DNA from: Phycisphaerae bacterium RAS1
GTDB lineage: Bacteria; Planctomycetota; Phycisphaerae; UBA1845; Fen-1342
Length of the DNA stretch: 64,000 bases
Assembly (NCBI GenBank): GCA_007859745.1
Contig: SMLU01000001.1
Coordinates: 1,798,001 to 1,862,000 of the forward strand
Direction: 5' to 3'
Positions 3,616 through 36,144 of this stretch are shown in pieces. A model generated the notes under the pieces. The model was not told the origin of the DNA, did not search any database, and saw only the letters and a list, made by a program, of their open reading frames with translations. Within the stretch, counting starts at the first letter, position 1, and the number at the start of each line of letters is the position of its first letter. Both the position numbers and the translations under genes were made by a program.

Positions 3616-3966
3616 CTAAGGCAGGCCGAATCGATCCAGTACACGCGCTACCGCCGCTGCGTCATACATTTGTCCGCACTCTGGGCACACGTGATCCCTC
3701 GGAACGCCCTTTCGCCAGTAACCGCACTTCAGACAGATATCTGCGCCCGTTTGTTGCAGCACACTGCGAAGCCGCCTGTGCCATCCCCAGTACAAGGGGA
3801 ACTGTGCCGCTAGACATAGCATGCCGAGTAGAGTACAGTGCCTCTCCCAGGCGGCTGGGCCGTACGCGACGCCTACCAGGCACACGAGGGCAAGTACACC
3901 TCCGACGACCTCGAAAGCTAGCACGATGTTAGCGCCTCGATCGAAGAACGCGTTGTGCTCCCACAT
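3616..3966 (-). CDS. Putative immunity protein, membrane, zinc ribbon (cassette C3)
   Basis: A 116-residue protein begins 33 nt after the stop of RHS C3. Two to three hydrophobic segments (residues about 12-36 and 45-62) are followed by C-L-K-C-G-Y...C-P-E-C-G, a rubredoxin-like zinc ribbon, and a short helix. It sits exactly between an RHS tip and the next core copy. The immunity role is inferred from position and from the shared ribbon with genes at 1442, 14184, 15900 and 18027. Confidence 0.55.
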   Translation of the reverse strand: MWEHNAFFDRGANIVLAFEVVGGVLALVCLVGVAYGPAAWERHCTLLGMLCLAAQFPLYWGWHRRLRSVLQQTGADICLKCGYWRKGVPRDHVCPECGQMYDAAAVARVLDRFGLP

Positions 3967-8397: not shown

Positions 8398-10999
8398 TTA
8401 GTCAACGAACCGGATAACACCCCGGATACACTCGACTACAAAGTCCTCCGCCGCTTCAAGTGTTAGCGGCGCTCCCTCTGCCTCAAAGAAGGCGACCACT
8501 CCCTCCTCCAATTCGAAACCGACGGCTTCGACCTCCCAGAGCTCGCCTCCAAATACAACATAGGCGATGCCAGGCGGTTCGAGGTCGTCGTACGTGTAGG
8601 CCAGGTCATAGGGCACGGGCGACAGCGTGTAGGGCGGCAAAGCGATGTAGCCGTACTCGCGCGTCAGGCGGCTGCGCTTGTCGTAGGTGAAGTTCACGGT
8701 CACCGGCGAGTTCGTGCCGACGGTCTGCTCGATGGAAGAGACGAGGCCGTCCGCCGTGTATTCGTAATCGAGCTTCAGCAGGATCGCGCCCGCCGTGCCG
8801 ACGCGGTGGGTGATGGTGTCGAGGCGCTGGGCGTCGTCGTAGGTCCAGGTGATGCGGGATGCAACGGATCCGTCGTGGTAGTAGTCGGCGTGCTCGTTTC
8901 GACCCGTGGGGTAGAGCGTGTAGTGCACGAGGTGCGCTTCGTCCAGGTAGACGTCGATCAGGCGGTTGGCGTCGTCGTACATGTATTCGGTCTGGTGGTT
9001 CTCGGGATCGGTCAGGAGCTCGAGGTTGCCGTTGGCGTCGGGCGTGAAGAGAAATTCGCGCACGACGGCATCGCCGTCGGGATCGGGCGCCGTCGTTGTG
9101 AAGGTGGCTGAACGCAGGCGGGACAACTCGTCGTAGGTGAACTCGTGGTTGTGCTGGGCGGATTCGCAGAGCGCTTCAAACGCGGGATCTTCTCCCCACT
9201 CCACGACCGCGCGCACGGAGAGGATGTAGGCTGTGGCGGTGCGAAGGCGGCCGAGCTTGTTGTAGGTCATCTCCGAGCAGCCGACCGGATCAGTGCCGAA
9301 GCAGCTTTCGTAGAAGCTTCCTTCGCTTGCGTCACAGGAAGGCATCGGGATGTAGGGGCTGCAATCGGGGATCGGCATGTAGGGATTGACCGGATCGCCG
9401 CCGCCTAGCAGGGGAAGGGGTTCCCCGACCGATCCTGGCGGCGGCTCGTTCGGCAAGCAGGATTCGCCGGTCGGCTCGTCAAAGGCAGTTGACGTCGTGG
9501 TCGAAGGCTGCTCATAGAACAGCTCCGCCGTGCCGTTGTAGACGGTCACGCTTTTGAGCACGCCGTTGCCGCTGCGGACCTGGGTTTCAACGACCGGGAA
9601 CGACCCGGACTGCGGGCCTTCGCGCACGCCGGCGGGCTGGCGAAAGACGTCGTTGGTGTAGATGAACGCGGTTCGGGCCAGGAGCGGGTCAAGCACGACG
9701 TCGACTTCGCCGATGGGGGCGCCCAGGCGCGTCGTGGAGGGCGTGACGTAGTGATGATACGAAATCGCCGTCTCCGCCGGCATGAAGGGGGCGGCCCCGT
9801 CGGCGTCGGGCTCGGTGATCTTGGTGACGTTCGTGTGGTCGGCCCAAAGCTGCTGTTGTGCGTTGTAGTAGTCCTCGTATTCAAGCTGGACCTGTTTGGA
9901 GTCGTCGGGGTCGCCCTCGTTGTTGAGCGGCGGCGTGATGCTCGTGACGTTGTTGTAGCCGTCGTATGTCCACGTCCACGTGTGCCCGAGCGGATCGGTG
10001 AGCGTTTCGCGGTTGCCGTTGCCGTCGTACGTCGCCGTCCAGGTCTGCTCCATCTCGTTGGTGAATGAACTGAGGTTGCGGTCTGGGTCGTAGCCGAAAT
10101 AGACGGTGTCGCCGTAGGGATTCGAGGCGCTGACGATCGCACCCACGCCGTTGAACGCCCATGTCCAGGTCTTGCCGCGACGGTCCGTGTATTCCGTCAC
10201 CGCCAGATAGCTCTCGGCATCGACCGAGAATTCGAAATCCTGCGTCGCCGGTTCGGGTGCGCCGGACGGGTCAGTGACGGTCTGGATTCGTCCGTCGGCG
10301 TAGTAGGCGTACGTGTATTCGTTGGTCTCCGGGTCAGTCAGGCTTGTGATCCGTCCGTCCGTCTGGTAGTCGAACTCGAAAATGCGCTTGTAAGGCGAAT
10401 CCTCGTGATCGGGATAGAGCGTGATCTTCCAGATTCGGCCCTCGTTCGGGCCGTCTTCAAAGCGCGTCACGTCAAAGAACCGGTTTTTCGTGGTCGGATT
10501 CCGTAATGCGTGCCCTCTGGCCAGCGGCGGCTCGATCGGGGTCTCATCCCGGTCAAATGCGAAATCGCCGTCGTCGCCGCCGTAGATCGCGCTCTGCAGA
10601 AGCTTCAGGAAACCTTGCGAGGTTCGAATAAGCGTCAAGCGCAGCCACGGAAGGGCGTTGTTGTCGGTTTCCAGGTGCGAATCGAGCACGTAAACCAGTA
10701 ACCCGGCGCTGTCATAGACACGGTGCGTCTGGTCCTTACGTGTCAAAGTCCATTGCTGAAGCTGATCGTCATACGTGAGCGAGTCGAACACGCCTTCGGG
10801 CGCAGTGCACTGGTCTTGCGCGTCGCGAGCAAATCGGTCAACGGTTCCGTCCTCGTGGACGACGTCCACGTAGTCGTCCTCAATCAGCAACAGGCCGCCG
10901 TAGGCCGCGATCCAGCCCGAGCCAAGCCCGAACTTTGTGCCGGCATCCAGGTCAATCGTCCCGTCCACCCGGCTCGACACGTGGTAAAGCGCAAAGTCG
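8398..10999 (-). CDS. RHS/YD-repeat protein C1, N-terminal half of an RHS core (5' truncated)
   Basis: From about 10990 the minus strand reads VSSRVDGTIDLDAG...GLGSGW then a YD-repeat series (YDDQLQQWTL, YAYYADGRIQTVTDPSG, YDGNGNRETLTDPLGHTWTW, TYDGYNNVTSI). This is the first part of an RHS shell, absent from every other module. GTG at 10980 is a nominal start; upstream homology ends at the head-to-head junction with A1. The end is abnormal: after AYTYDDL the frame runs into about 55 acidic residues (ELWEVEAVGFELEEG) and stops with no RDP...DPxGL core end. This looks like fusion to the C-terminal part of an unrelated small gene. Confidence 0.65.
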
Positions 11000-13900
11000 A
11001 CCGCGAGGGCAACCTGACGCGCATCGTCGGCCCGGAAGGCGAACGGACAGACATTTCCTATGATGGCGCTGACCGCCGCGAAATCGTCCGGGCGTTTCAC
11101 GCGACGCCCAGCGAACCGCCCGATCCCGAGGAGTACATCGAGACCTCCTACACCTACGACGGCGCGGACAATCTCACGACGATCCTGCGCCCCGACGGCG
11201 AGGCCGTCACGCTCGCCTACGACCTCGACAACCGCCTGACCGACGTCTCCGACACCTCCGGCACGATCGCCGGTTTCACTTATGACGAAAACGGCAACGT
11301 CGAAACGCGCTCGACCGGCCTGAGCAACCAAACGTGGACGTTCGAGTACGACCTGGCCGACCGGCTGACGGTCGTGAAAGACCCGGTCGTCGAATCGCCG
11401 GACAAGTACACGCAGTACGACTACGACGCCAACGGCAACCGCACCGACCTGGTTGACAACAACGGCGTTCACACGAAGTACGGGTACGACGGCCTCAACC
11501 GCCTCACCTCGATGATCGAGAACTTCGAAGGCACAGACGACACCGCCGACACGACCACCACCTACGGCTACAACGGAGTGCGGCAGGTTTCGATCAGCGA
11601 TCACGACGACAACACGACCACGTACGTGTACGACGACGCACTGCGCCTGACCAAGGCCACCTACCCCGATTCCGCCGGCGGCAGCGACGTGGTTACGTAC
11701 ACTTACGATCCCGACGGCAGTCTCGAGACGCGCACCGACCAGCGCGGCGTCGTCACGGAGTACGCCTACGATCATCTGCATCAGCTTACCGATCGCGAAT
11801 ACTCCGGCCCGCTGGGGACGCGGGCCGAGACCTTCGCCTTCGATCGCTCCGGCCGGCTGACCGCCGCGGACAACGGCGTTGTCGACACGACGCTGACCTA
11901 CGACCTGCTGGGCCGCATGACCAGCTCGACGATGGATTTCGGCGGCGGGTCGGCGGGCGTGTACAGCACCGGCATTGAATACGTTGTCGCCGAGGACGAC
12001 CTGCGGCAGGTGGTCACCTATCCCAGCGGTCGCGAGGTGACCGACACGCTGGACCGCCGCTCGCGCCTGGAGAGCGTCGCCAGCGACCTGTCGTCGCCCG
12101 GCGCGCCGGCCGGCGTCACGTGGGGCTACGACGACGGCGACCGGCGCGAGTCGGCCGCGCTGGCCAACGGGGCGCAGTCGCTGTTCGATTACGACCTGAA
12201 CAACCGCCTGCTGCGGCTGCGCCACGCGCGGGATTTTTCACCCAGCCTGATCGACCCGATGCACGACATCGAGTATCGCTACGACGCCGTCGGCAACCGG
12301 CTGCTGAAGCGCGACAACCTGCGCACCGACCGCAGCGAGCTCTACGGCTACGACCAGCGGCACCGGCTGCGCTCGATGCTGCGCGGCGAGCTTGACGGCG
12401 ACATCGACGTGCCGGCGGAGGTGACCATCCCATCGCCGATCAATGACGGCGAGATGGTGCAGTCGCAGGCGTGGCCGATGGGCGACTCGCAGGCGTCGCC
12501 GCCGGTGGAGCCGGGGCTGGATCGCCGCGGGAACTGGGCCGGGTTCGAGTATGAGACCGGCACGGCCGTCGCGTCGCAGAGCCGCACGGCCAACGCGGCC
12601 AATGAGTACGAGAGCGTCTACACGACCATCGGCGGCCTGATCGTCGGCCAGCTTTTGGAGCATGACGCGGCCGGCAACCTGGTCGAGATCGCGCTGGTGG
12701 GCGATTTGAACTGCGACGGCGAGGTCAACATCAATGACATCGGCGCCTTCAGTCTGGCCATCTCCGACCCGCCCGCCTACGCCGCGGCCTATCCCGACTG
12801 CAACATCGACCTGGGCGACATCAACGGCGACACCTACGTGAACATCGGCGACATCAACGCCTTCACGGCCCTGCTTTCGGCCGGCCACCCGGCCGCTGCC
12901 CGGCGGTATACTTATGATGAGGAAAACCGGCTGACGGCGGTGACCGAGTGGGACGAGACGCCGCTGCTGGAGATTGAGTACGACGCTTTGGGACGCCGCG
13001 TGTTGACGAAGGACCATGTTGGCGGCTGTGGCACGGGTTTCCAACCCGTGAAGACGCGGCACATCTACGCCGGCATCGAGACGCTCGAAGAGCACGTCTG
13101 CTGCGGCGAGGCGTATCCGGATTGCGAGTCTGAGGATTGGGCCCTGGCTCGCGAGTTCCTCTGGGGCGAGCGCTTCCCCGAGCCGCTGGCGATGATCGAC
13201 TACACCGACGCCGGCGACGTGCCCGCGGCCGGCACGACCGGCGGCGGGGCGGAGACGCTGCACTTTGTGCACGATGCGCTCGGCTCGGTCATCGGCCTGC
13301 TCGACGCCGGCGACCCGGATGCCACGCCCACGCCGATTCCGCCGAAGATGGTCGAGCGGTATGAGTACGATCCATACGGGCGAACGTACGTTGAGGCGTG
13401 GGACGCCGGGACTAGTGAGTGGGTCCGCCTGACGCCGCAAGGCGACGCCAGCGCCGCCAGCTCGCGCTTCGGCAACCCGTTCGCCTGGACTGGGCAGCGC
13501 TACGACGCGGCGGTCGGCATGTATCACTTTCTGTTCCGGTCATACTTGCCGGAGTTGGGGAGGTGGATGCAGCGCGATCCGCTGACATACGTGAGTGGGA
13601 TAAACCTGAACGAATACATCAGCAGTCGCCCCGCCGTATGGATAGATCCCCTCGGGCTCGATCGCTGGCATAGAGGCGTGCTGCATACGGGCCTTGACGT
13701 GGGGCCAATCAATGGTATCTACTATGCAATTGACTTTACTGGCCTTGGCAACTACAACCTTGGACAACTGGTTCTGGTGACGCTCTTTGGATGGAATGTT
13801 GGGGTGCCCGGTCAGGTCATCATCATCCCCACACAACGTCCTGGCCGACCGCCCGATATTCGGAGCGATCCGACGATTGACCAGGCGCTCATAAACATGC

Positions 13901-14154
13901 TGTCTAATGAGTGGTTCTGGTATAACGTGTTTTTCAGGAATTGCGACAACTTTGCGAAGTACTTCTTGGACTGCGGGCTTGTTGAATGGAAGCCCATTCC
14001 GCCAGAGTACTTTCCAAAGCCGCCGTCTCCGCCTGCTCCTCCAAGCGAACCACCGCCACAGCCTCCGCCTGTGCCATCCGACCCCGGCACACCACTCGGT
14101 GGGAAGGGGCCACCTTGTCAAGATGGAAAAGGCCCTTACGGCGGTCCAATGTGA
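10990..14154 (+). CDS. RHS/YD-repeat cassette A1, longest core, dockerin insert, papain-like tip (5' truncated)
   Basis: Homology starts at DREGNLTRIVGPEG with no native start codon, so this is the 3' part of a gene. It has about 12 YD repeats, then an embedded type I dockerin-like pair at 12698-12882 (GDLNCDGEVNINDIGAF and GDINGDTYVNIGDINAF), then YDEENRLTAV, a Cys-bearing HIYAGIETLEEHVCCG segment, LGSVIGLLDAGD, and the core end LGRWMQRDPLTY...IDPLGL. The tip from about 13660 has HRGVLHTGLDVGP and RNCDNFAKYFLDCGL. The H plus N-C-x-x-F pair is the signature of permuted papain-like (LRAT/NlpC-P60 type) hydrolases, so a hydrolytic toxin is inferred. A Pro-rich tail ends the protein. Confidence 0.75.
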   Translation, partial: RKVDREGNLTRIVGPEGERTDISYDGADRREIVRAFHATPSEPPDPEEYIETSYTYDGADNLTTILRPDGEAVTLAYDLDNRLTDVSDTSGTIAGFTYDENGNVETRSTGLSNQTWTFEYDLADRLTVVKDPVVESPDKYTQYDYDANGNRTDLVDNNGVHTKYGYDGLNRLTSMIENFEGTDDTADTTTTYGYNGVRQVSISDHDDNTTTYVYDDALRLTKATYPDSAGGSDVVTYTYDPDGSLETRTDQRGVVTEYAYDHLHQLTDREYSGPLGTRAETFAFDRSGRLTAADNGVVDTTLTYDLLGRMTSSTMDFGGGSAGVYSTGIEYVVAEDDLRQVVTYPSGREVTDTLDRRSRLESVASDLSSPGAPAGVTWGYDDGDRRESAALANGAQSLFDYDLNNRLLRLRHARDFSPSLIDPMHDIEYRYDAVGNRLLKRDNLRTDRSELYGYDQRHRLRSMLRGELDGDIDVPAEVTIPSPINDGEMVQSQAWPMGDSQASPPVEPGLDRRGNWAGFEYETGTAVASQSRTANAANEYESVYTTIGGLIVGQLLEHDAAGNLVEIALVGDLNCDGEVNINDIGAFSLAISDPPAYAAAYPDCNIDLGDINGDTYVNIGDINAFTALLSAGHPAAARRYTYDEENRLTAVTEWDETPLLEIEYDALGRRVLTKDHVGGCGTGFQPVKTRHIYAGIETLEEHVCCGEAYPDCESEDWALAREFLWGERFPEPLAMIDYTDAGDVPAAGTTGGGAETLHFVHDALGSVIGLLDAGDPDATPTPIPPKMVERYEYDPYGRTYVEAWDAGTSEWVRLTPQGDASAASSRFGNPFAWTGQRYDAAVGMYHFLFRSYLPELGRWMQRDPLTYVSGINLNEYISSRPAVWIDPLGLDRWHRGVLHTGLDVGPINGIYYAIDFTGLGNYNLGQLVLVTLFGWNVGVPGQVIIIPTQRPGRPPDIRSDPTIDQALINMLSNEWFWYNVFFRNCDNFAKYFLDCGLVEWKPIPPEYFPKPPSPPAPPSEPPPQPPPVPSDPGTPLGGKGPPCQDGKGPYGGPM
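13032..13050 (+). repeat. REP palindrome inside RHS coding sequence (A1)
   Basis: CACGGGTT-TCC-AACCCGTG, coding for part of GTGFQPV. The same element occurs in A2 and A5; in A3 and A6 the position holds unrelated sequence. Confidence 0.75.
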
Positions 14155-14183: not shown

Positions 14184-14495
14184 ATGGGACGTACCATTCG
14201 CTATTGTGCTGTTGGGTTCGTGCTGGGCATCCTCGTCGGAATCTGCGAGGCGCTGATTTCGGCAATTGGCGCCACGGAGTATTGGCGCACTGTGCGGCTT
14301 CATTACGGGCAAGTTGGATTGGCGTTCCCTGGGCTGGGCTTGATTGGGGGGTTGATTCTCGCCAAGCGCGCTCAACGAGGCCCCCGCGGAGTGCCCGGTC
14401 GCTCGCTTTGTCATTACTGCGGGTACGATCTGACTGGAAACACCACGGGCGTCTGTCCAGAGTGCGGACGCTCGATCAAGCGTTCTCCGTCGTAG
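14184..14495 (+). CDS. Putative immunity protein, two-TM with zinc ribbon (cassette A1)
   Basis: 103 residues from ATG 14184, 29 nt after the A1 stop. Two hydrophobic segments (residues about 5-25 and 42-60) are followed by C-H-Y-C-G-Y-D-L-T-G-N...C-P-E-C-G, a ribbon frequent in planctomycete membrane proteins. The partial core of A2 begins about 40 nt after its stop. Position supports an immunity role against the A1 tip; the biochemical function is unknown. Confidence 0.55.
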   Translation: MGRTIRYCAVGFVLGILVGICEALISAIGATEYWRTVRLHYGQVGLAFPGLGLIGGLILAKRAQRGPRGVPGRSLCHYCGYDLTGNTTGVCPECGRSIKRSPS

Positions 14496-14530
14496 TTGGT
14501 CGACATACAGCCGAACGAGGAGGTTTCTCG

Positions 14531-15892
14531 GATACCTTCACGGCCCCGCTTTCGGCCCGGCACCCGGCCGCCGCCCGGCGGTATACTTATGATGAGGAGA
14601 ACCGGCTGACGGCGGTCGGCCGGCCGAACCCGAATGACCCCGGCGGCGATCCGATTTCGCTGCTGGAGATTGAGTACGACGCTTTGGGACGCCGCGTGTT
14701 GACGAAGGAGCATGTTGGCGGCTGTGGCACGGGTTTCCAACCCGTGAAGACGCGGCACGTCTACGCCGGCATCGAGGTTCTGGAAGACCACGCCTGCTGC
14801 GACGGGGAAGAGGCCGGCGGATTGCCTGCCTGTCCGCCGGCGGAGGGCGGAGCGTGGGCCCTGGCGCGCGAATTCCTGTGGGGCGAGCGCTTCCCCGAGC
14901 CGCTGGCAATGATCGATTACACCGACGCCGGCGACGTGCCGGCCATCGGTTCCTCCGGCGGCGGGGCCGAGACGCTGCACTTTGTGCACGACGCGCTCGG
15001 CTCGGTCATCGGCCTGCTCGACGCCGGCGACCCGGATGCCACGCCCACGCCGATTCCGCCGAAGATGGTCGAGCGGTATGAGTACGATCCATACGGGCGA
15101 ACGTACGTTGAGGCGTGGGACGCCGGGACTAGTGAGTGGGTCCGCCTGACGCCGCAAGGCGACGCGACGGCCGGCGGCTCGCGCTTCGGCAATCCCTTCG
15201 CCTGGACCGGCCAGCGCTACGATGCGAGCGTCGGGATGTATCACTTCCTGTTTCGGTCGTACTCGCCGGAATTGGGGAGGTGGATGCAGAGGGATCCGCT
15301 GGGGTATTTGGATGGCGTGAATCTCTACGAGTACGTTCGCTCCTGCGCCACAACGGCTACCGATCCGATGGGCGCACAGCAGCGCGACTGGACGGGCTCG
15401 TGGGATCCTCCCACAAACACAACCACCACCAATATCGGCACCGAAGCGCTATTAGAGTTGATCTGGGCCGCGACGGAGGCCAACCGACAACTTACCGAGG
15501 CGGAATGGAAGCGGTTCTTGGAGCTGATCAGGAGCCTGGAGTCACTTGACATAGACAGTACGTTTGCAAGGTGGTCACCGGATACACAGCAACGATACAC
15601 ACGCAAATGGTACAGCAAAAACATTGAGCGCTACGGCATAGAGCAGTATAAGGAAATCCAAAAACTGCTCAAGAAGATCTGGCCGAAGAAAGGGAAAGAA
15701 GGGCCTACGTGGCCACTGTGTTGTTTTGCACAGTATTCGGTGTGCAAGAACATCCAACAGTGCGCGCCACATTGCTGCCGCGCTCACATGGATGCGTGTC
15801 TTTCTGGTGGTGATAATGCGTGTCACGGCAGTACCAATCCGCCCCCAGGATGCCCTCCGGCAAGCAAGTGTTTTACACTCTGTATCAATTGA
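14531..15892 (+). CDS. RHS/YD-repeat cassette A2, Cys-rich tip
   Basis: Core homology to A1 begins within the last dockerin codons (TAPLSARHPAAARRYTYDEEN, about 14536). No start codon belongs to it, as expected for a silent cassette. The core continues through LGSVIGLLDAGD to LGRWMQRDPLGY...TDPMG. The tip, about 175 residues, is Trp/Lys-rich and helical in its middle (LIWAATEANRQLTEAEWKRF, IQKLLKKIWPKKGKEG) and ends with about 13 Cys in the last 60 residues, including CC pairs. I recognise no family. Confidence 0.7.
   Translation, partial: DTFTAPLSARHPAAARRYTYDEENRLTAVGRPNPNDPGGDPISLLEIEYDALGRRVLTKEHVGGCGTGFQPVKTRHVYAGIEVLEDHACCDGEEAGGLPACPPAEGGAWALAREFLWGERFPEPLAMIDYTDAGDVPAIGSSGGGAETLHFVHDALGSVIGLLDAGDPDATPTPIPPKMVERYEYDPYGRTYVEAWDAGTSEWVRLTPQGDATAGGSRFGNPFAWTGQRYDASVGMYHFLFRSYSPELGRWMQRDPLGYLDGVNLYEYVRSCATTATDPMGAQQRDWTGSWDPPTNTTTTNIGTEALLELIWAATEANRQLTEAEWKRFLELIRSLESLDIDSTFARWSPDTQQRYTRKWYSKNIERYGIEQYKEIQKLLKKIWPKKGKEGPTWPLCCFAQYSVCKNIQQCAPHCCRAHMDACLSGGDNACHGSTNPPPGCPPASKCFTLCIN
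14728..14746 (+). repeat. REP palindrome inside RHS coding sequence (A2)
   Basis: CACGGGTT-TCC-AACCCGTG, at the same codons as in A1. Confidence 0.75.
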
Positions 15893-15899
15893 ACTGAAG

Positions 15900-16406
15900 A
15901 TGATCACCGCATTCACAGCATGCGCTCGCATTGCGTTGTACGGCAGCCTTGGAGCCAGCATCTTCGCGGCGTGCCTGCGTGGCGATGCAATTCTCGTCTG
16001 TTCGGTTCTTGGCGGTCACGCGCATGTAGCCGTTGACTTTCTCAGGGCTACGTGCGAGATGTGTCTGCGCACGGCTCCCCAGACGGACGACCTTCCGATC
16101 TTCGAGGACGGCATCACGTATTTGAAGCCGGAATCCCAGCCGTGGTCATTGGGCTCTCCCTTGCGGGGGGCCTTCACGCTTAGGTTGTTCGACGACATGG
16201 CCTTTGTCAGGTGTCCGCTCTGGTTGGTTATGATCTGTGAAGTTGGGCTACTCGCAGTATTGAGAATGATCCGGCGACGGCTGCGACCGCCTATAGCCGG
16301 ATCCTGCGAAAGTTGTGGATACTGCCTTGACGGAAACGTCAGCGGCACTTGTCCGGAGTGCGGTTGCAAGATCCTGCAAGCGCCGCGGGAACTGGGCCGG
16401 GTTTGA
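15900..16406 (+). CDS. Putative immunity protein, membrane, zinc ribbon (cassette A2)
   Basis: 168 residues from ATG 15900, 7 nt after the A2 stop. Hydrophobic segments lie at about residues 5-25, 30-45 and 105-120, then C-E-S-C-G-Y...C-P-E-C-G-C. The final residues (about RELGRV) are read from RHS core DNA of the next cassette in another frame, so the recombination that placed the A3 core also replaced this gene's own 3' end. An immunity role is inferred from position. Confidence 0.55.
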   Translation: MITAFTACARIALYGSLGASIFAACLRGDAILVCSVLGGHAHVAVDFLRATCEMCLRTAPQTDDLPIFEDGITYLKPESQPWSLGSPLRGAFTLRLFDDMAFVRCPLWLVMICEVGLLAVLRMIRRRLRPPIAGSCESCGYCLDGNVSGTCPECGCKILQAPRELGRV

Positions 16407-18039
16407 GTATGAGACCGGGACGGCCGCCGCGTCGCAGAGCCGCACGGCCAACGCGGCCAATGAGTACGAGAGCGTCTACACGACCATCGGCGGCCTGATC
16501 GTCGGCCAGCTTTTGGAGCATGACGCGGCCGGCAACCTGGTCGAGATCGCGCTGGTGGGCGATTTGAACTGCGACGGCGAGGTCAACATCAATGACATCG
16601 GCGCCTTCAGCCTGGCCCTCTCGAACCCGACCGCGTACGCCGCCGCGTACCCGGACTGCAACATCCAACTCGGCGACATCAACGCCGACGCCTCCGTCAA
16701 CGTCGGCGACATCAACGCCTTCACCGCCCTGCTTTCGGCCGGCCACCCGGCCGCCGCCCGGCGGTATACTTATGATGAGGAGAACCGGCTGACGGCGGCG
16801 ACCAAGTGGGACGAGACGCCGCTGCTGGAGATTGAGTACGACGCTTTGGGACGCCGCGTGAGCACGCATGACCATACCGGCGCATCCGACCCCTGTGGCT
16901 GGGGGAGCATCGGCGTCTCGCCGGTGAAACTCCGGCACGTCTTCGCCGGCATCGAGACGCTGGAGGAATACGTTTGCTGCGGCGCGGCGTATCCGGATTG
17001 CGAATCCGAGGATTGGACGCTGGCGCGCGAGTTCCTCTGGGGCGAGCGCTTCCCCGAACCGCTGGCGATGATCGACTACACCGACGCCGGCGACGTACCG
17101 GCCGTCGGTTCGTCCGGCGGCGGGGCCGAGACGCTGCATTTTGTGCATGACGCGCTCGGAAGCGTCATCGGCCTGCTCGACGCCGGCGACCCGGATGCCA
17201 CGCCCACGCCGATTCCGCCGAAGATGGTCGAGCGCTACGAATACGATCCGTATGGACGGACGTATGTCGAAGCCTGGGATCAATCATTGAACAGCGGCGC
17301 GGGCGACTGGGTGCGCCTGACGCCGGTGGGCGACGCCGCCGCCGCCGGCTCGCGTTTCGGCAACCCGTTCGCCTGGACTGGCCAGCGATACGACGCGGGG
17401 GTCGGGATGTACCACTTTCTCTTCCGCAGCTATTCGCCGGAGTTGGGGAGGTGGATGCAGCGGGATCCGCTGGAATACTCCGATGGGCCCAATCTTCTTC
17501 AATATGTGCGCGGGCGTCCCGAAAACGCAACCGATCCATTGGGCCTTCTCGATCCTAAGGGAGGGGGCGCGCCGGGCTTGGGCTTGGGGTATACGCCAGA
17601 TGACTACAAGAACGCGCTAAAGGAGATCGACAAGTACCTCAAGGGCCAGGTTGGCGAGCATATGGAAGACAAGGATCGCACAGACCTGGCTACTGACATT
17701 ACGAATGAAATGGGCATGTTGGAAGCGAAGAAGCTGAACGATGCGAAGAAAGAGATCGAGGACGCCGACAAGATCCTGAATGACCCGGCTGCAAGCGATA
17801 AAGACAAAAAGAAGGCGCAGGACAAGAAGAACAAGGCCACCAAGAAAATGAAAGAAGTCCAGGACGAGATCGAGAAGCGACTGAGAGAGAAGGCAAAGAA
17901 GGATAGCAAGCTAAGAGACCGACTCGATAAGGCAGACAAGGCGAAACAGAAAAAAGAAGATGAGGACAAGGACAAGGACAAAGAGAAGGACAAAGACAAA
18001 GGGAAAGGCGGCGGCGGTAGCGGTCCATGTCCGGACTAG
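16315..18039 (+). CDS. RHS/YD-repeat cassette A3, lysine-rich charged tip
   Basis: A GTG at 16315 lies within the preceding gene; true RHS homology starts at about 16381 (RRGNWAGFEYETG). The core includes the dockerin-like pair at 16555-16740. It then follows A1, except that the REP-bearing stretch is replaced by a STHDHTGASDPCGWGSIGVSP variant shared with A6. The core end is LGRWMQRDPLEY...TDPLGL. The tip, about 155 residues, is extremely charged and helical, with K/E/D alternation (KKEIEDADKIL, KKMKEVQDEIEKRLREKAKK) and a KDKDKEKDKDK tail ending GGGGSGPCPD. A coiled coil or a disordered basic/acidic domain is likely; no enzyme motif seen. Confidence 0.7.
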   Translation: MDTALTETSAALVRSAVARSCKRRGNWAGFEYETGTAAASQSRTANAANEYESVYTTIGGLIVGQLLEHDAAGNLVEIALVGDLNCDGEVNINDIGAFSLALSNPTAYAAAYPDCNIQLGDINADASVNVGDINAFTALLSAGHPAAARRYTYDEENRLTAATKWDETPLLEIEYDALGRRVSTHDHTGASDPCGWGSIGVSPVKLRHVFAGIETLEEYVCCGAAYPDCESEDWTLAREFLWGERFPEPLAMIDYTDAGDVPAVGSSGGGAETLHFVHDALGSVIGLLDAGDPDATPTPIPPKMVERYEYDPYGRTYVEAWDQSLNSGAGDWVRLTPVGDAAAAGSRFGNPFAWTGQRYDAGVGMYHFLFRSYSPELGRWMQRDPLEYSDGPNLLQYVRGRPENATDPLGLLDPKGGGAPGLGLGYTPDDYKNALKEIDKYLKGQVGEHMEDKDRTDLATDITNEMGMLEAKKLNDAKKEIEDADKILNDPAASDKDKKKAQDKKNKATKKMKEVQDEIEKRLREKAKKDSKLRDRLDKADKAKQKKEDEDKDKDKEKDKDKGKGGGGSGPCPD

Positions 18040-18752
18040 TTGATCGGCCATCGGGCTCAGTGACGGTGTTGCCACACAAATGGCGTGTATGGGTAATATC
18101 GAGCGTCGCGTACATTGCGGCCATCATGACCGCAACTTGTCTGACCAGCGCGCTGTTTTGGGCTGACCCGCTCTTGCGAAACGGGCCGGATCACTTCGGC
18201 GCCCGCGCGCTTAGGTTTATTTGGTGCCCACGGACGGGCGAGACGATCCGTTCGTTGATTGCCTGCGTCACGTTTTGGGTGCTACCGGCCCTGGTTGCTG
18301 TTGCGATCTGTGCGTATTCCACCAGAAAACAATCGTCGGCTCGCTTGTCGATCCACATGGTGGTGCTCAGGAAACTGTGGATACCCAGCGCTGCTGGTAT
18401 CGCGGGCGGATTTGTCACTTGCCTACTTTCGGTAATCGGTCATGGCAGCGACATCGACCTTGTAATGACGCCGGGACGCGCGCTCATTGTATGGTTTGAT
18501 GTGTTTCAACCACTCGACCGGTGGTCCGGGGTGCGAGGCGTAAGCACGATTCTTACACTACTGTGTGGATGGTCGCCGATGGTCTTAGGCGCGATTGCCA
18601 CGTTTTGGTTTTGTATGTACCGAGCGGGCAGCAAGGACCGGCGGACAACAGACTGCGAGCGCTGCGGATACGATCTCACCGGACTTCCCAGTCGGCGCTG
18701 CCCAGAATGTGGGTGGGTGCCGCACGAGTCTTCGCGCCACACGACGCAATGA
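18027..18752 (+). CDS. Putative immunity protein, multi-TM with zinc ribbon (cassette A3)
   Basis: 241 residues from ATG 18027, overlapping the end of A3 by 13 nt. About five hydrophobic segments (VISSVAYIAAIMTATCL, LIACVTFWVLPALVAVAIC, IPSAAGIAGGFVTCLLSVIG, VLGAIATFWFCMY and others) precede C-E-R-C-G-Y-D-L-T-G-L...C-P-E-C-G-W. It is the largest of the five ribbon proteins in the locus. Its stop overlaps an ATG (ATGA at 18749) that opens cassette A4. Confidence 0.6.
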   Translation: MSGLVDRPSGSVTVLPHKWRVWVISSVAYIAAIMTATCLTSALFWADPLLRNGPDHFGARALRFIWCPRTGETIRSLIACVTFWVLPALVAVAICAYSTRKQSSARLSIHMVVLRKLWIPSAAGIAGGFVTCLLSVIGHGSDIDLVMTPGRALIVWFDVFQPLDRWSGVRGVSTILTLLCGWSPMVLGAIATFWFCMYRAGSKDRRTTDCERCGYDLTGLPSRRCPECGWVPHESSRHTTQ

Positions 18753-20737
18753 TTCGACGTAGGTGCGGTCCCGATCGTTTTGTAAGCTTCCGCCGCGGCG
18801 AGGTCTACGCCTACGACCAGCGGCACCGGCTGCGCGGCATGCAGCGCGGCACGCTGGACGGCGACATCGACGACCCCGGCGTCGGCATCGCCGACCCGAT
18901 CGACGACGCCGAGATGCCCGCCGTGCAGAACTGGCCGATGGGCGATTCGCAGGCCTCGCCGCCGGTGGAGCCGGGGCTGGACCGGCGCGGGAACTGGGCC
19001 GGGTTCGAGTATGAGACCGGCACGGCCGCCGCGTCGCAGAGCCGCACGGCCAACGCGGCCAATGAGTACGAGAGCGTCTACACGACGATCGGCGGCCTGA
19101 TCGTCGGCCAACTCCTGGAACACGACGCGGCCGGCAACCTGGTCGAGATCGCGCTGGTGGGCGATCTGAACTGCGACGGCGAGGTCAACATCAATGACAT
19201 CGGCGCCTTCAGCCTGGCCCTCTCCGACCCGCCCGCCTACGCCGCGGCCTATCCCGATTGCAACATCGACCTCGGCGACATCAACGCCGACGCCTCCGTC
19301 AACGTCGGCGACATCAACGCCTTCACCGCCCTGCTTTCGGCCGGCCACCCGGCCGCCGCCCGGCGGTATACTTATGACGAGGAGAACCGCCTGACGGCGG
19401 TGACGGAGTGGGACGAAACGCCGCTGCTGGAAATCGCGTACGACGCATTGGGACGCCGCGTGTTGACGAAGGACCATCTTGCAGGTTGTGGTATTGGCTT
19501 CCAGCCCGTTCAGACGCGGCAGGTCTACGCCGGCATCGAGGTTCTGGAAGAGCACGCCTGCTGCGACGGCGAAGATTCAGGCGGATTGCCGGATTGTGCG
19601 ACCGGCTGGGCCTTGGCGCGCGAGTTCCTCTGGGGCGAGCGCTTCCCCGAGCCGCTGGCGATGATCGACTTCACCGACGCCGGCGACGTGCCCGCGGCCG
19701 GCACGACCGGCGGCGGGCCGGAGACGCAGCACTTTGTGCATGACGCGCTCGGCTCGGTCATCGGCCTGCTCGACGCCGGCGACCCGGATGCGACGCCGAC
19801 GCCGGTACCGCCGAAGATGGTGGAGCGATACGAGTACGACCCCTACGGTCGGACGTACGTGGAAGCCTGGGACGCCGGCACGAGTGAGTGGGTGCGCCTC
19901 TCGCCGCAAGGCGACACCACGGCCGCGGCCTCGCGCTTCGGCAACCCGTTTGCCTGGACCGGCCAGCGCTACGACCCCGGCGTCGGCATGTATCACTTCC
20001 TCTTCCGGAGTTACTTGCCGGAGCTGGGGAGGTGGATGCAGCGGGATCCGGTTGAGTACTCAGAGGGGCCGAATATGCTCGAATATGTGCGATCGATGCC
20101 GACGGGCTTTGGAGACCCGTTCGGCTTGTGGCCGCGCCGACTGCCGCGTGGGGTTCCTCCGCCGACGCCCGGGCCGGGACAGCCGCCGCATATCCCGTGT
20201 CGCGCTGACCCTGGGAGGTGTACACCTGAACAGCACAAAGCTCTCCAAGACAATGTGAACAGCGCGTGCAAGCCGAATTATGGCGGCGGCGGCTTTGGAT
20301 GTAGTCCACCCGGCGCCTTCGTTCCAATTGGGGCCTATTGTCAGAGCACAAAGAGCAACATACTGCGTGCGTCAAAATGCGCGCAGGCCCGTGAGACCAT
20401 CAATAACGCCTGTTATGGTGGCGGGGACGATGGTCACAAGGAGCAGGCAGCGAACGCGCGACGTGCGGCGTCAAATTGTGCCGACCAGTATTTTCGGCAT
20501 TGTGGCCGCCGCCGACATGCGCCGAAACCGAACCCGTCCCCGGTACCGCCGCCTTACTCGGTTCCAGTTGGTGACTCCCTCTGGGAGCAGTATTCCAACG
20601 CCGTTAAACGTAAGTTGGACTCGGAATGGGGCTGGTGGGGCTGCGGTTTCGCACCGTCTCCAGTGTTCGTGCTCCCCGGCGGAGTTCCATCGCCGGCTCC
20701 TGTGCCTCTTCCAGTAGGTATTCCCGCGTTTCCTTAG
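18749..20737 (+). CDS. RHS/YD-repeat cassette A4, Cys/Gly-rich tip
   Basis: The ATG at 18749 overlaps the previous stop, giving a possible own start; RHS homology begins at about 18799 (EVYAYDQRHRL). The core includes the dockerin-like pair at 19157-19342 and an eroded copy of the GTGFQPV segment. The end is LGRWMQRDPVEY...GDPFGL. The tip, about 215 residues, is Pro-rich, then Cys-rich: HKALQDNVNSAC, CAQARETINNACYGGGDDGH and ANARRAASNC. This C...IN..C-[YF]-GGGD..H pattern recalls a domain seen at the ends of other RHS proteins, but I cannot name it safely. Confidence 0.7.
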   Translation: MIRRRCGPDRFVSFRRGEVYAYDQRHRLRGMQRGTLDGDIDDPGVGIADPIDDAEMPAVQNWPMGDSQASPPVEPGLDRRGNWAGFEYETGTAAASQSRTANAANEYESVYTTIGGLIVGQLLEHDAAGNLVEIALVGDLNCDGEVNINDIGAFSLALSDPPAYAAAYPDCNIDLGDINADASVNVGDINAFTALLSAGHPAAARRYTYDEENRLTAVTEWDETPLLEIAYDALGRRVLTKDHLAGCGIGFQPVQTRQVYAGIEVLEEHACCDGEDSGGLPDCATGWALAREFLWGERFPEPLAMIDFTDAGDVPAAGTTGGGPETQHFVHDALGSVIGLLDAGDPDATPTPVPPKMVERYEYDPYGRTYVEAWDAGTSEWVRLSPQGDTTAAASRFGNPFAWTGQRYDPGVGMYHFLFRSYLPELGRWMQRDPVEYSEGPNMLEYVRSMPTGFGDPFGLWPRRLPRGVPPPTPGPGQPPHIPCRADPGRCTPEQHKALQDNVNSACKPNYGGGGFGCSPPGAFVPIGAYCQSTKSNILRASKCAQARETINNACYGGGDDGHKEQAANARRAASNCADQYFRHCGRRRHAPKPNPSPVPPPYSVPVGDSLWEQYSNAVKRKLDSEWGWWGCGFAPSPVFVLPGGVPSPAPVPLPVGIPAFP

Positions 20738-21390: not shown

Positions 21391-23283
21391 ATGCAGCGCG
21401 GCGAGCTCGACGGCGACATCGACGAGCCGGCGGAGGTGACCATCCCGACGCCGATCAATGACGGCGAGCTGGTGCAGTCGCAGACGTGGCCGCAGAGCGC
21501 CGGATTGGATCGCCGTGGGAACTGGGTCGGATTCGACTACGAGACGAAGAACGGAGCGGCGTCGCAGACGCGGACGCGCAACGGCGCCAACGAGTACGGC
21601 TACATCGACACCACGGTCGGCGAGATGTTCGTCCAGCAACTTCTGACGCACGACGCGGCCGGCAACCTGACGCGAATCGACCTCGTGGGCGATTTGAACT
21701 GTGATGGCGAGGTCAACTTGCTGGATGTGAACGCGTTCAGCCTGGCGCTGTCCGACTCGGAGGACTATGCCGCCGCGTATCCCGGCTGCAACAGCTTGCT
21801 GGGCGATGTGAACCGCGACGGCGTGCTGAACGTGAGCGACATCAACGCATTCAGCGCGCTGCTATCGGCTGGAAACACCGGACAAGCCCGGCGGTTCGGG
21901 TATGATGAAGAGAACCGGTTGGTGACGGTGCTGCAGACGGACGGCACGCCACTGCTGGAGATTGCGTACGACGCTCTGGGACGCCGCGTGTTGACGAAGG
22001 ACCATGTTGGCGGCTGTGGCACGGGTTTCCAACCCGTGAAGACGCGGCACGTCTACGCCGGCATCGAGGTTCTGGAAGAGCACGCCTGCTGCGACGGCGA
22101 AGAGGCCGGCGGGTTGCCGGATTGTGAATCCGAGGATTGGACGCTGGCGCGCGAGTTTCTGTGGGGCGACCGCTTCCCGGAGCCGCTGGTGATGATCGAT
22201 TTCACCGACGCGGGCGATGTTCCCGCGGCCGGCACGACCGGCGGCGGGGCTGAGACGCTGCACTTTGTGCGTGACTCGCTCGGCTCGGTCATCGGCCTGC
22301 TCGACGCGGGTGACCCGGAAGCGACGCCGACGCCGATTCCGCCGAAGATGGTCGAGCGGTATGAGTACGATCCGTACGGGCGGACGTACGTCGAGGCCTG
22401 GGATCAGTCGCTCAACAGCGGCGCTGGGGATTGGGTCCGCCTGACGCCAGTGAGCGGCGCAACTGCCGCCGCCTCGCGCTTAGGCAATCCTTTTGCCTGG
22501 ACTGGGCAGCGATACGATGCGGGCGTGGGCATGTATCACTTCCTGTTCCGGTCGTACTCGCCAGAACTGGGGAGGTGGATGCAGCGCGATCCGCTGGGGT
22601 ATGTCGGCGCTGACAATCTCTTTCAATACGTACTGTCTTCACCGCTGACGTGGCTCGACCCATTGGGTCTGTGTGAAGAGGGCAGCGGTCCGGCTCCGGC
22701 GCCCCCCGCGGACGTTCCGATTCTGCCGCTCGTACCGAAGAAGTGCCTGCACCACCTAAAGGAGATTTTGGGACTCGCGAACAACCTAAGGGACGAGATC
22801 AGGAACTACAACCCGGAAGCAGATCCAGGCGGAAAGTCCTTCGACAAGTCGGGAAGAAAAACAAGACCCGGCGGTCATGGTCAGAAATACCGAGACAAGC
22901 AGAACCGCCTTCGGAACAAGATCGATGAGTACGACCGTGATTGTCGCCCAGGCGGAGCGCCGCCGCTCCCAAAGGAAGTCACGGACGTCGTCGACATGCC
23001 CATCCCGCAGGCCCAACCCACTGGCGGCCCCGCGCCCGCACGTCAACCCGGCGCGCCACCGGCACCCGCGGCACCTCAGCAACCGAAACCGGAACAGCCG
23101 GCCATCGACCCAGTCGCTCCGCCGAAGCCGGGCGCCGTTCCGGCGGCGGCAGGCGGAGGGTCTATCCTCGGGACAATCTTCGAATTCGGCGCTGGGCTTT
23201 CGCGTGTGCCCATTTCACTCATGCCGATCTTCATTGTGGATGTCGAGAGCGACCTCAATAAACCAAAGATTCACTACGACTAA
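21391..23283 (+). CDS. RHS/YD-repeat cassette A5, Pro-rich tip
   Basis: RHS homology starts at 21277 (HDLEYRYDAVGNRLLKRD), the longest core overlap with A1 in this cluster; the first in-frame ATG is at 21391. The dockerin-like pair at 21685-21870 is more diverged (GDLNCDGEVNLLDVNAF, GDVNRDGVLNVSDINAF). The core end is LGRWMQRDPLGY...LDPLGL. The tip, about 205 residues, has a basic helical part (KKCLHHLKEILGLANNLRDEI, GRKTRPGGHGQKYRDKQNRL) followed by a long Pro/Ala linker and a C-terminal hydrophobic segment. The GRKTRPGGHGQKY...R...R part could be a nuclease-like basic motif, but this is speculative. Confidence 0.7.
   Translation: MQRGELDGDIDEPAEVTIPTPINDGELVQSQTWPQSAGLDRRGNWVGFDYETKNGAASQTRTRNGANEYGYIDTTVGEMFVQQLLTHDAAGNLTRIDLVGDLNCDGEVNLLDVNAFSLALSDSEDYAAAYPGCNSLLGDVNRDGVLNVSDINAFSALLSAGNTGQARRFGYDEENRLVTVLQTDGTPLLEIAYDALGRRVLTKDHVGGCGTGFQPVKTRHVYAGIEVLEEHACCDGEEAGGLPDCESEDWTLAREFLWGDRFPEPLVMIDFTDAGDVPAAGTTGGGAETLHFVRDSLGSVIGLLDAGDPEATPTPIPPKMVERYEYDPYGRTYVEAWDQSLNSGAGDWVRLTPVSGATAAASRLGNPFAWTGQRYDAGVGMYHFLFRSYSPELGRWMQRDPLGYVGADNLFQYVLSSPLTWLDPLGLCEEGSGPAPAPPADVPILPLVPKKCLHHLKEILGLANNLRDEIRNYNPEADPGGKSFDKSGRKTRPGGHGQKYRDKQNRLRNKIDEYDRDCRPGGAPPLPKEVTDVVDMPIPQAQPTGGPAPARQPGAPPAPAAPQQPKPEQPAIDPVAPPKPGAVPAAAGGGSILGTIFEFGAGLSRVPISLMPIFIVDVESDLNKPKIHYD
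22020..22038 (+). repeat. REP palindrome inside RHS coding sequence (A5)
   Basis: CACGGGTT-TCC-AACCCGTG, at the same codons as in A1 and A2. Confidence 0.75.
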
Positions 23284-24807: not shown

Positions 24808-25636
24808 AAGCTATCCCTAAACCTGTCGAATCAACAGAATGGTGCATGCCAGGTGCAGAAAGCCGCGGAACAACTTGGTGGACTTTTCCCAGCGGATGCA
24901 CAAGCGGCGGAAGTGTTGAATCCAGGCAATGGTGCGCTCCACGGTCCAGCGACGCTTGTATCTTCGCAGCGGCCGGCCATCCTGTGTGATGTTGACGCGG
25001 TTGGAGCGATGCGGCGCGATCAGCTCCGTCCCGCGCTGCGCCAGCTCTGCCGCCAGCCCGTCGTCGTCGTACGCTTTGTCGCCGATCACCCGCTCGGGCA
25101 CGCCGCTGGTCAGCATGAAGTCGAACAGCCGCTGCACCAGTCGGCTCTCGTGCGGCGTGGCCGACATCGTGTCGATCGACACCGGCAACCCCTGGGCATC
25201 CACCAGAATCATGATTTTCACCCCTTTTCCGGCCTTCGTGAGCCCCACGCCGTCGCCGCCGCCCTTGGCTTTCGAGAACATGCCGTCCATGAAACACTCG
25301 TACAGCCGGAAGCCGTCGCGCTCCTCGACCACGCGGCCGGCCTCGCGCAGCACGCGTTCAAAGACGCCGTCCCGCACCCAGCGCTGAAAGTGCCGATGCA
25401 CGGCGCTCTTGGCCCCGAACGCCCGAGGCAAGTCCTTCCACTTGGCCCCGTTGTCCAGAATCCAGAAGATGCCGCGCAGCACCCTGGCCTTGTCCAACGC
25501 AGGCCGACCGCCCTTGGCACTGATCGGCGGATCGGGAATCCGTTCCAACAGCCAACTACACACATCATCCGTGAGCGTCAACATGTTGTGTATTATACAT
25601 CTGAATGCCACAATATGCCAGTTTAGGGATAGGTTC
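24807..25636 (+). mobile_element. IS5-family-like insertion sequence
   Basis: About 830 bp. The ends carry a perfect 12-bp inverted repeat, CTATCCCTAAAC at 24811-24822 and its complement at 25621-25632, which extends outward with mismatches. A TA is repeated immediately outside both ends (24805-24806 and 25637-25638), consistent with the 2-bp TA target duplication of IS427/IS1031-type elements. It encodes one transposase on the minus strand and lies exactly between cassette A6 and RHS module B1. Its right end supplies an in-frame ATG (25605) to B1. Confidence 0.8.
24817..25584 (-). CDS. IS5-family DDE transposase
   Basis: 255 residues from ATG 25584 (MLTLTDDVCSWLLERIPD). The N-terminal DUF4096-like region (LRGIFWILDNGAKWKDLPRAFG, HRHFQRW) is followed by a DDE_Tnp_1-type catalytic domain: first D near LYECFMDGMFSKAKGG, second D in VIGDKAYDDDGL, E in RRWTVERTIAWIQHFRRL. 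The length fits an intact single-ORF IS427-group transposase and no frameshift is seen, so the element may still be active. An upstream ATG exists, but the conserved domain starts at 25584. Confidence 0.9.
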   Translation of the reverse strand: MLTLTDDVCSWLLERIPDPPISAKGGRPALDKARVLRGIFWILDNGAKWKDLPRAFGAKSAVHRHFQRWVRDGVFERVLREAGRVVEERDGFRLYECFMDGMFSKAKGGGDGVGLTKAGKGVKIMILVDAQGLPVSIDTMSATPHESRLVQRLFDFMLTSGVPERVIGDKAYDDDGLAAELAQRGTELIAPHRSNRVNITQDGRPLRRYKRRWTVERTIAWIQHFRRLCIRWEKSTKLFRGFLHLACTILLIRQV

Positions 25637-29120: not shown

Positions 29121-29717
29121 TTGGATCGCCGCTTCGTCTATGACGGCTGGCTATTGCTGCTGGAGCTTGACGGACTGGACGATAACGCTGTCATTCGCAA
29201 GTACACTTGGGGCCTGGACCTCGCCGGCCTGAACGGTTCGGTCGGCGATCGCACGTCAGCCGGCGGCATCGGCGGCCTGCTGGCAATGGAACAGGCTTCA
29301 GGCGTTCAGGAAGGCTACTCCGGCGGATATCTCTACTGCTACGACGCCAATGGCAACGTGACGCAGGTGCTGGATGCCGACACCGGCGCATTTGCGGTCA
29401 CATATGAATACGATCCTTATGGCAATCGTGTGAACACGCCAACGGAAGGCGAACTTGAACAGCCGATCCGCTTCAGCACGCGACCGTTTGATCCGGAGAC
29501 GGGTTTTGGTGCGTGGCTGTACCGGTTGTATGATCCAAGAACTGGGAGGTGGATCAGCAGAGATCCGATTGGGGAAGCCGATGGCCCTATGGATTATCAT
29601 GCTTATCATCGCGATGAAGGCAACAAGCGCGACCGTCCGCAAACGGTCGATACGGATGTACGCCGCAAGTGCTGGGTGTATTCTAGCCTGCGCAATATGG
29701 CTATGTACGAAAGCTGA
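29121..29717 (+). CDS. RHS core C-terminus of module B1, tip lost
   Basis: Same frame as the preceding ORF after TAG 29109: LDRRFVYDGWLLLLELDG, YDANGNVTQVLDADTG, YEYDPYGNRV, FGAWLYRLYDPRTGRWISRDPIGE. Directly after RDP it runs out of frame into the start of the small gene at 29581 (DYHAYHRDEGNKRD...), giving a meaningless 45-residue tail. So the tip was deleted and the core was joined to the immunity-like gene. With the TAG this makes B1 a non-functional module. Confidence 0.6.
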   Translation: MDRRFVYDGWLLLLELDGLDDNAVIRKYTWGLDLAGLNGSVGDRTSAGGIGGLLAMEQASGVQEGYSGGYLYCYDANGNVTQVLDADTGAFAVTYEYDPYGNRVNTPTEGELEQPIRFSTRPFDPETGFGAWLYRLYDPRTGRWISRDPIGEADGPMDYHAYHRDEGNKRDRPQTVDTDVRRKCWVYSSLRNMAMYES

Positions 29718-30039
29718 CCGGTATGTGGAGTGGCTGCGAGCAAGTCCAGAGCACATAATCGTGCTCGGGAGTTCACCGGAATTCCTGACTGAATCGCAGG
29801 CCATCCAGGCGGCAGGCCAAGTGCTCGCGCACGCTCACTACTGCGTTTCGGAGTGGTCCATGTTGCCAGACGGGCGGACGAGTGCGCCAGATGGTCGAAG
29901 AGACGAATATTTTGTCCGAAATGTGTCACGGCCGAACGAGGGATTCATACAGTTTGTGCGGGACAGTCGCGAGATGCGAACAGTACGCTTGCGGTTGGAC
30001 GGAACACTTATCAAGTGTGTCATCTGGAACCCGAAATGA
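29581..30039 (+). CDS. Putative immunity protein, single TM, copy 1 (orphan)
   Basis: 152 residues from ATG 29581. An N-terminal hydrophobic start and a second hydrophobic run (ASAGCILACAIWLC) are followed by a polar domain (RYVEWLRASPEHIIVLGSSPEFLTE, AHYCVSEWSMLPDGR, VRLRLDGTLIKCVIW). It is almost identical to the gene at 32002-32454, which follows the complete B2 tip. This copy follows a module whose tip is gone, so it looks like an orphan immunity gene that arose by tandem duplication. Confidence 0.6.
   Translation: MALWIIMLIIAMKATSATVRKRSIRMYAASAGCILACAIWLCTKADRYVEWLRASPEHIIVLGSSPEFLTESQAIQAAGQVLAHAHYCVSEWSMLPDGRTSAPDGRRDEYFVRNVSRPNEGFIQFVRDSREMRTVRLRLDGTLIKCVIWNPK

Positions 30040-35400: not shown

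Positions 35401-36144
<744 letters not shown>

Follow-up and report, generated by a model that had tools for sequence, protein, structure and literature searches.

The main finding obtained in this work was that four small genes of Phycisphaerae bacterium RAS1 lie directly 3' of Rhs tips, on the strand of the tip, and encode a cysteine ribbon of the form C-x2-C-G-Y-x(n)-C-P-E-C-G behind predicted membrane segments. The genes (3616, 14184, 15900 and 18027, named by position) were found in the window, that is, the whole stretch of 64,000 nucleotides (nt) analysed here (G000:C1:1798001-1862000), which carries Rhs tip cassettes on both strands. We consider it probable that they are membrane-anchored immunity-type genes of the Rhs cassettes, belonging to a lineage-specific set, and that the ribbon is a generic cytoplasmic module and not the recognition part. 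The computation revealed their position behind the tips, an enrichment of ribbon genes at this position, a charge bias on the ribbon side of the membrane, a partial kinship beyond the ribbon, and arrays of ribbon genes with variable middles. The original prediction had listed five such genes, with the ribbon at or near the C-terminus. Both statements hold for these four and not for the gene at 1442-2128, which has a different paired-cysteine motif in mid-protein, lacks CGYxL and CPECG, and is not matched by the ribbon profile even at 3 bits; the count is therefore four.

Ribbon genes behind Rhs tips

Gene calls followed simple open reading frame (ORF) rules. In the window, the 3616 gene starts 33 nt past the tip stop and the 15900 gene at +7 nt, the 18027 gene overlaps the tip stop by 13 nt, and the 14184 gene starts either at ATG 14184 (gap +29 nt) or at GTG 14151, the latter overlapping the stop by 4 nt. 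Rhs tips were located with TIGR03696, which gave 30 tips in the RAS1 genome at E<=0.01, including one that scores under the family cut-off; in the set of 41 genomes the best 150 of 216 matches were used, highest scores first. For the relatives, 123 of the 128 tips among the matches listed were placed, the five near contig starts being left out, and 122 of them had a stop. Up to 3 kilobases (kb) downstream of the 151 tips whose stop lay within the retrieved DNA were scanned on both strands with one ribbon profile, built from 27 ribbons of the RAS1 genome.

As a result, a same-strand ribbon was found no more than 1300 nt downstream of 7 of 29 RAS1 tips, where genome density predicts 0.12 (Poisson p 7.8e-11), and of 28 of the 122 relatives' tips, where 0.54 were expected (p 5.5e-38); these p-values are optimistic, because they treat the tips as independent, which those in one array are not. 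An eighth RAS1 case, behind tip 2106139, was verified beyond the locus border and brings the count to 8 of 30. Of the 33 genomes in which a tip was examined, 18 have at least one tip with a ribbon behind it, so that the enrichment beside Rhs tips suggested earlier is confirmed, far above expectation, and a random spread of ribbon genes is ruled out by a shared module in the immunity slot. On the antisense strand of the 3-kb stretches no ribbon was found at >=15 bits. The strict motif is matched by 34 of the 35 ribbons behind tips, and the gene start lies -45 to +90 nt from the tip stop in 26 of these 35 genes. A random sample of 80 kb held 60 genes, nine of them small membrane genes, and no ribbon.

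The ribbon is a recurrent module of the lineage; outside it, the only group with many copies in a draw from the phylum is one family belonging to the same class. The profile matches 36 copies in the RAS1 genome and 3-96 per genome in 40 relatives, and all 41 genomes searched in the order carry it. In this draw, of 99 genomes, matches were obtained in 14, RAS1 included, with 32-54 copies in three genomes of that one family and 1-3 weak matches in each of ten others; a ribbon common across all planctomycetes was rejected on these numbers. Rhs was found in 58 of the 99 genomes, again including RAS1, and the 29 Rhs loci of this draw from outside the order (about 1.5 kb per side, some cut by contig ends) contain no ribbon at >=5 bits, the best scoring 4.9. 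A ribbon-family query over GTDB genomes, five of whose six rows were slot proteins, confirmed 371 stretches, and the 80 most similar to slot protein L088 were kept; 74 of these best 80 loci are named Planctomycetota, Phycisphaerae, Phycisphaerales or planctomycete.

Conserved anchors, ribbon and variable outer part

The 35 proteins behind tips are 81-341 amino acids (aa) long and have 1-5 predicted membrane segments. The near-tip set comprises 43 slot entries for 42 genes, one of which has two starts; some of the genes lie as far as 3 kb downstream of the tip, with other ribbon genes in between. Of these entries, 32 have the ribbon at the C-terminus, 9 at the N-terminus and 2 in a central position. 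In 39 of the 43, the flank of the nearest membrane segment that bears the ribbon is the more positive one (Wilcoxon p 8e-8), and from this charge bias the ribbon is probably located on the cytoplasmic side; a common membrane-targeting scheme, one of two explanations proposed for the shared ribbon, is likely on the same grounds. The description of the ribbon as rubredoxin-like stands as a resemblance and not as family membership, since no model of Pfam (all five genes) or NCBIfam (four genes) reaches its curated cut-off. The best scores were 18.5 bits for DUF7129 (cut-off 30), 17.9 for DZR (27.3) and 15.9 for NF033497 (32). The ribbon shares two CxxC knuckles with PF12773 (Double zinc ribbon), PF13248/PF13240 (zinc-ribbon) and NF033497/NF045720 (rubredoxin-like), and differs from the members of these families in that all its matches remain below the cut-offs. 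Other kinds of paired cysteines (e.g. CPLCG..CDCGYDW) were seen in some slot proteins (RAS1 C1:1693753 tip, G018:C140). A slot protein of 323 aa (L124:1292-2260, minus strand) has, by eye, an apparent internal duplication with the ribbon in the first half only, and an array protein of the same length (L222:3122-4093, plus strand) has two ribbon-like stretches.

Kinship beyond the ribbon is partial. With the ribbon masked, blastp connected no more than 4 of the 43 slot entries with further ribbon genes, and one of these links (L219, 98%) leads to a gene itself behind an Rhs core; a profile was therefore required. The two-helix family profile, made from 148 sequences of the 80 loci with the ribbon removed, matched 11 of the 43 entries (10 of 42 genes) at E<0.001, including the 15900 gene (E=6e-4), compared with 1 of 45 non-ribbon membrane slot proteins used as controls (2 of 45 below 0.01). 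The matches amount to 8 of 40 when L088 and the gene 98% identical to L219, a row of the profile, are set aside, neither being independent. Among the other window genes, 14184 is marginal (E=0.035), 3616 reaches E=0.24 and 18027 is outside the best 25 matches listed. The premise that immunity proteins are usually unrelated is thus to be qualified; in the slot genes outside this one family, the ribbon is attached to different scaffolds.

Across the family alignment, the mean identity between pairs is 0.31 for the N-terminus plus helix 1, 0.15 for the outer domain, 0.42 for helix 2 plus linker and 0.76 for the ribbon. Paralogs near Rhs tips in G032 agree with this in two of three pairs, which have identities of 65 and 82% for the N-terminus plus first membrane segment, 19 and 18% for the outer domain, and 71 and 76% for the second segment plus ribbon; the third pair has 68, 75 and 94%, respectively. 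Within the family, the outward part looks like the part that varies, and the anchors and the ribbon like the conserved ones. An AlphaFold2 model of an array member, based on a 55-sequence alignment that includes the 15900 gene and in which the four cysteines are invariant, has a predicted local distance difference test score (pLDDT) of 91.3 and a predicted template modelling score (pTM) of 0.74. It consists of a helix (6-31), six strands within 32-102, a second helix (104-122) and the ribbon (129-148). The 15900 gene, modelled from 12 sequences, gave a poor model (pLDDT 66.7). Foldseek found no PDB match of the array-member model at E<=0.001 (best 0.084), which is no proof of a new fold, and the best VIA-align match (Z 5.4, 96 residues aligned at 11.5 Å) may merely reflect a common arrangement.

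Many of the ribbon genes related to L088 are organized in tandem. Same-strand runs of 2-7 ribbon genes occur in 42 of the 80 loci, a share that, like the Rhs share of these loci given below, is valid only for relatives of L088, because the loci were chosen by similarity to it. The median stop-to-stop distance is 516 nt in these related loci, the window not being among them. On the plus strand lie 170 of the 174 ribbon ORFs; the query match is on this strand by construction, so the informative remainder is about 95, with four on the minus strand. In G032, four ribbon genes stand in tandem behind one tip, a connection between the Rhs slot and the formation of arrays.

Tips and competing explanations

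Tip properties were compared for the 149 tips that had 300 nt or more of downstream DNA. The second explanation proposed for the shared ribbon, a common membrane-active toxin class, is not supported by this comparison. Hydrophobic tips are not commoner with a ribbon gene (11 of 35 versus 30 of 114, p=0.67), nor are cysteine-rich ones (18 of 35 versus 57 of 114), and since neither hydrophobic segments nor cysteines are enriched, no single membrane-active toxin class stands behind the ribbon and such tips were rejected as its common partner. An HExxH-like motif was nominally commoner with a ribbon gene (6 of 35 versus 4 of 114, p=0.012, one of five tests, uncorrected). Tips and downstream genes are related together in seven pairs, three of which include at least one ribbon gene, and the HExxH-like tips deviate from this; in a pair from G014, related tips (37%) precede related scaffolds (48%). 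Between the tips G013:C27 and G021:C251 the identity is 56% over 123 aa, and the genes behind them are also related (29% over 146 aa with the ribbon masked). The G013:C27 gene has a ribbon, and the 1945 nt available downstream of the G021:C251 tip contain none in any reading frame, which argues that the ribbon is not the specificity part.

We hypothesize that the gene downstream would neutralise the toxin of the preceding tip. The slot protein would most likely be an inner-membrane protein whose ribbon faces the cytoplasm, and the toxins may act in the envelope; the protein would encounter them in the periplasm or at the membrane, recognise them by its membrane or outer part and then block them. 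The ribbon, which presumably binds zinc, could stabilise the cytoplasmic end or dock a common partner, with no say in specificity.

Several observations weigh against the hypothesis of membrane-anchored immunity proteins with a generic ribbon. Most ribbon genes are not linked to Rhs (1269 copies in 184 megabases of the 41 genomes), and only 2 of the best 80 of 371 loci have one directly behind an Rhs core, where more distant Rhs would go unseen because contig ends cut many loci. Membership of the two-helix family beyond the ribbon is limited to the 10 of 42 slot genes mentioned. The toxin activity of the tips is itself putative, as Pfam, run on 20 of the 35 ribbon-associated tips, gave one match above cut-off (DUF6973). 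The share of cysteine-rich tips is not significantly different in ribbon slots and in slots lacking a membrane segment (18 of 35 versus 17 of 39, density p=0.084), so cysteine richness does not establish an envelope site of action. Behind three related HExxH-like tips, 35-42% identical over 186-227 aa, lie ribbon proteins with no detectable similarity between their scaffolds, and the ribbon could matter for that toxin; in one of the loci a transposase-like ORF (by eye; L003:7091-7870, minus strand) lies between an HExxH-like tip and its ribbon gene. In L235, one of the loci with an Rhs core, the ribbon gene behind Rhs differs from the query match.

Other tip matches stayed below cut-off, DUF3238 just below it and PPPDE, TseH-like and the Binary_toxB calcium-binding domain weakly. 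Pooling ribbon slots with lipoprotein-like ones does not separate cysteine-rich tips from those of slots without a membrane segment either (26 of 43 versus 17 of 39, p=0.18). The lipoprotein-like slots alone do differ, all eight tips having at least six cysteines (p=0.0027 on cysteine density; e.g. G034:C1:877216, G023:C1:1294246 and RAS1 C1:2095691). A fourth tip related to the three HExxH-like ones is that of RAS1 at 2095691 (30%), and the lipoprotein-like protein behind it would fit an extracytoplasmic action of this toxin type.

These HExxH-like tips also bear on a different explanation, which we consider unlikely, namely that the ribbon is the functional part and recruits a common cytoplasmic partner, such as a chaperone, a degradation or an export factor of the Rhs system, the membrane parts merely positioning it. 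The ribbon is indeed the only part common to all slot proteins and the only one shared by the scaffolds behind the three related tips, and it is far better conserved than the outer domain. Against this explanation stand the related gene behind the 56%-identical tip, with no ribbon in the DNA available, and the 29 Rhs loci outside the order, equally without a ribbon at the threshold applied, despite the wide occurrence of Rhs in the phylum draw.

Rather improbable, in our view, is that the ribbon genes are general small membrane proteins of the lineage with an unrelated role, for example in envelope sensing, some of which were caught in the repeat-rich, mobile Rhs arrays. Ribbon genes do occur in arrays that lack Rhs and downstream of genes that by eye resemble nusG and sulfate adenylyltransferase genes. 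Nevertheless, the enrichment behind tips is confined to the sense strand, concerns mostly the first slot, often with start-stop overlap, and extends over 18 of 33 genomes, and passive capture should give both strands.

The arrays themselves suggest that variable bodies have been exchanged between conserved ends, as judged from one array pair and one genome. The arrays L177 and L205, from different genomes, have flanks 89% and 80% identical in DNA and contain six and four ribbon genes, respectively, in changed order; three genes have counterparts at 81-91%, and for L205:4935 nothing in L177 is closer than 38%. The two are aligned in five collinear blocks with eight inner borders, five of them located in ribbon-coding DNA and the other three no more than 60 nt from a gene start. 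The tail after the ribbon often matches a different gene from the one matched by the body, and ribbon DNA accounts for six of the seven short matches (52-85 nt) that connect non-orthologous genes. In OFTM303, eleven DNA matches (259-296 nt, 72-83% identity) between array genes lie around gene starts; the ten with listed starts on both sides span about -223..-190 to +49..+91, that is, a gene end and the next start. One of the six ribbon ORFs of L177 (3142-3651, plus strand) has an in-frame TAG inside the ribbon, and a further ribbon-like stretch lies outside them, at 4618-4677.

It could be argued from such matches and borders that the ribbon stretch is kept largely as DNA homology which, together with the conserved gene start, flanks a variable middle and permits body exchange, with no role as a protein. 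One G032 pair would agree, as its synonymous difference (pS) is lowest in the second membrane segment plus ribbon (0.29 versus 0.60-0.73). This is very improbable, since the four cysteines are invariant in 55 members, the two other G032 pairs have pS 0.66-0.73 in the same part, the ribbon is N-terminal in 9 of 43 entries, the case comes from the one array pair and one genome only, and border positions alone overstate it, because alignment borders run through any stretch shared by paralogs.

A broader version of the immunity hypothesis can be offered tentatively, as a possibility that we regard as less probable than not. One planctomycete class may have its own large immunity system, built on a membrane chassis of a helix, a swappable outer beta domain, a second helix and a cytoplasmic zinc ribbon. 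Its members behind Rhs tips would be cognate to them and the arrays would keep further variants in reserve against neighbours' toxins that act in the envelope, with bodies exchanged as cassettes between the conserved gene-start and ribbon DNA, and the ribbon coupling the variants to one cytoplasmic partner.

The window and related immunity systems

Table 1. Rhs tips, candidate immunity genes and ribbon-coding stretches of the window.
Feature	Position (nt)	Strand	Remarks
Small gene behind tip with core match 2395-2538(-)	1442-2128	-	different paired-cysteine motif CRHCRFPQLRTEPRCVECG, mid-protein
Candidate immunity protein, 116 aa	3616-3966	-	membrane segment(s), then C-terminal ribbon; ribbon profile 40.5 bits
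Ribbon DNA of 3616 gene	3664-3738	-	peptide CLKCGYWRKGVPRDHVCPECG
Rhs tip ahead of 3616 gene	4003-4257 (tip end without stop)	-	short, hydrophobic
Rhs tip A1	13657-14154	+	PF05903 (PPPDE peptidase) matched weakly, E=0.051, under the cut-off
Candidate immunity protein A1, 103-114 aa	14151/14184-14495	+	two membrane segments, C-terminal ribbon; 43.9 bits
Ribbon DNA of A1 gene	14406-14477	+	peptide CHYCGYDLTGNTTGVCPECG
Rhs tip A2	15305-15892 (small part of core included)	+	cysteine-rich C-terminus
Candidate immunity protein A2, 168 aa	15900-16406	+	transmembrane segment (TM), outer part, PLW-TM, RRR, ribbon; member of two-helix ribbon family
Ribbon DNA of A2 gene	16305-16373	+	peptide CESCGYCLDGNVSGTCPECG
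Rhs tip A3	17545-18039	+	Lys/Asp-rich, coiled-coil-like by eye
Candidate immunity protein A3, 241 aa	18027-18752	+	four membrane segments, C-terminal ribbon; 45.1 bits
Ribbon DNA of A3 gene	18654-18719	+	peptide CERCGYDLTGLPSRRCPECG

The tip ahead of the 3616 gene and tips A2 and A3 have no Pfam match up to E 0.1. The Rhs core fragments at 10723-14154, 16315-18039, 18521-20737 and 21391-23283 (plus strand) contain the stretches GDLNCDGEVNINDI, which we take to be Dockerin-like. Two small genes behind different Rhs tips (29455-30039 and 32002-32454, plus strand) have translations that are near-identical by eye, a duplicated cassette gene, and transposase-like ORFs, also recognised by eye, lie in or beside the Rhs region at 24817-25611(-), 37736-38629(-) and 35251-36063(+).

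Polymorphic toxin cassettes of the Rhs and contact-dependent inhibition (CDI) type have immunity proteins that include two-helix membrane types, such as Imm17 and Imm-CdiI (PMC3482391). Like these, the slot genes described here are small, lie directly behind the tip on the same strand and are diverse, some with two membrane helices; unlike the immunity proteins in the accessible part of that description (PMC3482391), they have a CxxCGY..CPECG ribbon, predicted to be cytoplasmic, and in the searches made here this ribbon occurs in many copies in one class only. The arrays can be compared with homogeneous polyimmunity loci, known for SUKH, Imm11, Imm33 and others (PMC3482391), as they too are tandem, same-strand runs of distant paralogs with small spacing, whose content differs between related genomes. 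Extended polyimmunity loci, with at least four genes, were reported in that 2012 survey, in its accessible part, only from certain proteobacteria, bacteroidetes, firmicutes and actinobacteria (PMC3482391), whereas the ribbon arrays, whose immunity role is putative, consist of membrane proteins with a ribbon and are found in Planctomycetota. A search of titles and abstracts, with subscription literature mostly outside its reach, found no paper on the ribbon family or on Rhs immunity in Phycisphaerae.

If the proposed role is true, the ribbon would flag the immunity slot in Rhs-rich planctomycetes of the class, where these genes otherwise resemble unrelated orphans, and polyimmunity-like arrays would be extended to a phylum and a protein type, the membrane protein, absent from the listing of the 2012 survey. 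The uneven spread of the ribbon, present in all 41 genomes of the order and in three of one family, with at most 1-3 weak matches in each of the other 95 genomes drawn from the phylum, makes its cytoplasmic partner a well-posed question. The family would also offer a clean system for studying how a chassis that is conserved except for its exchangeable outer domain tracks diversifying toxins.

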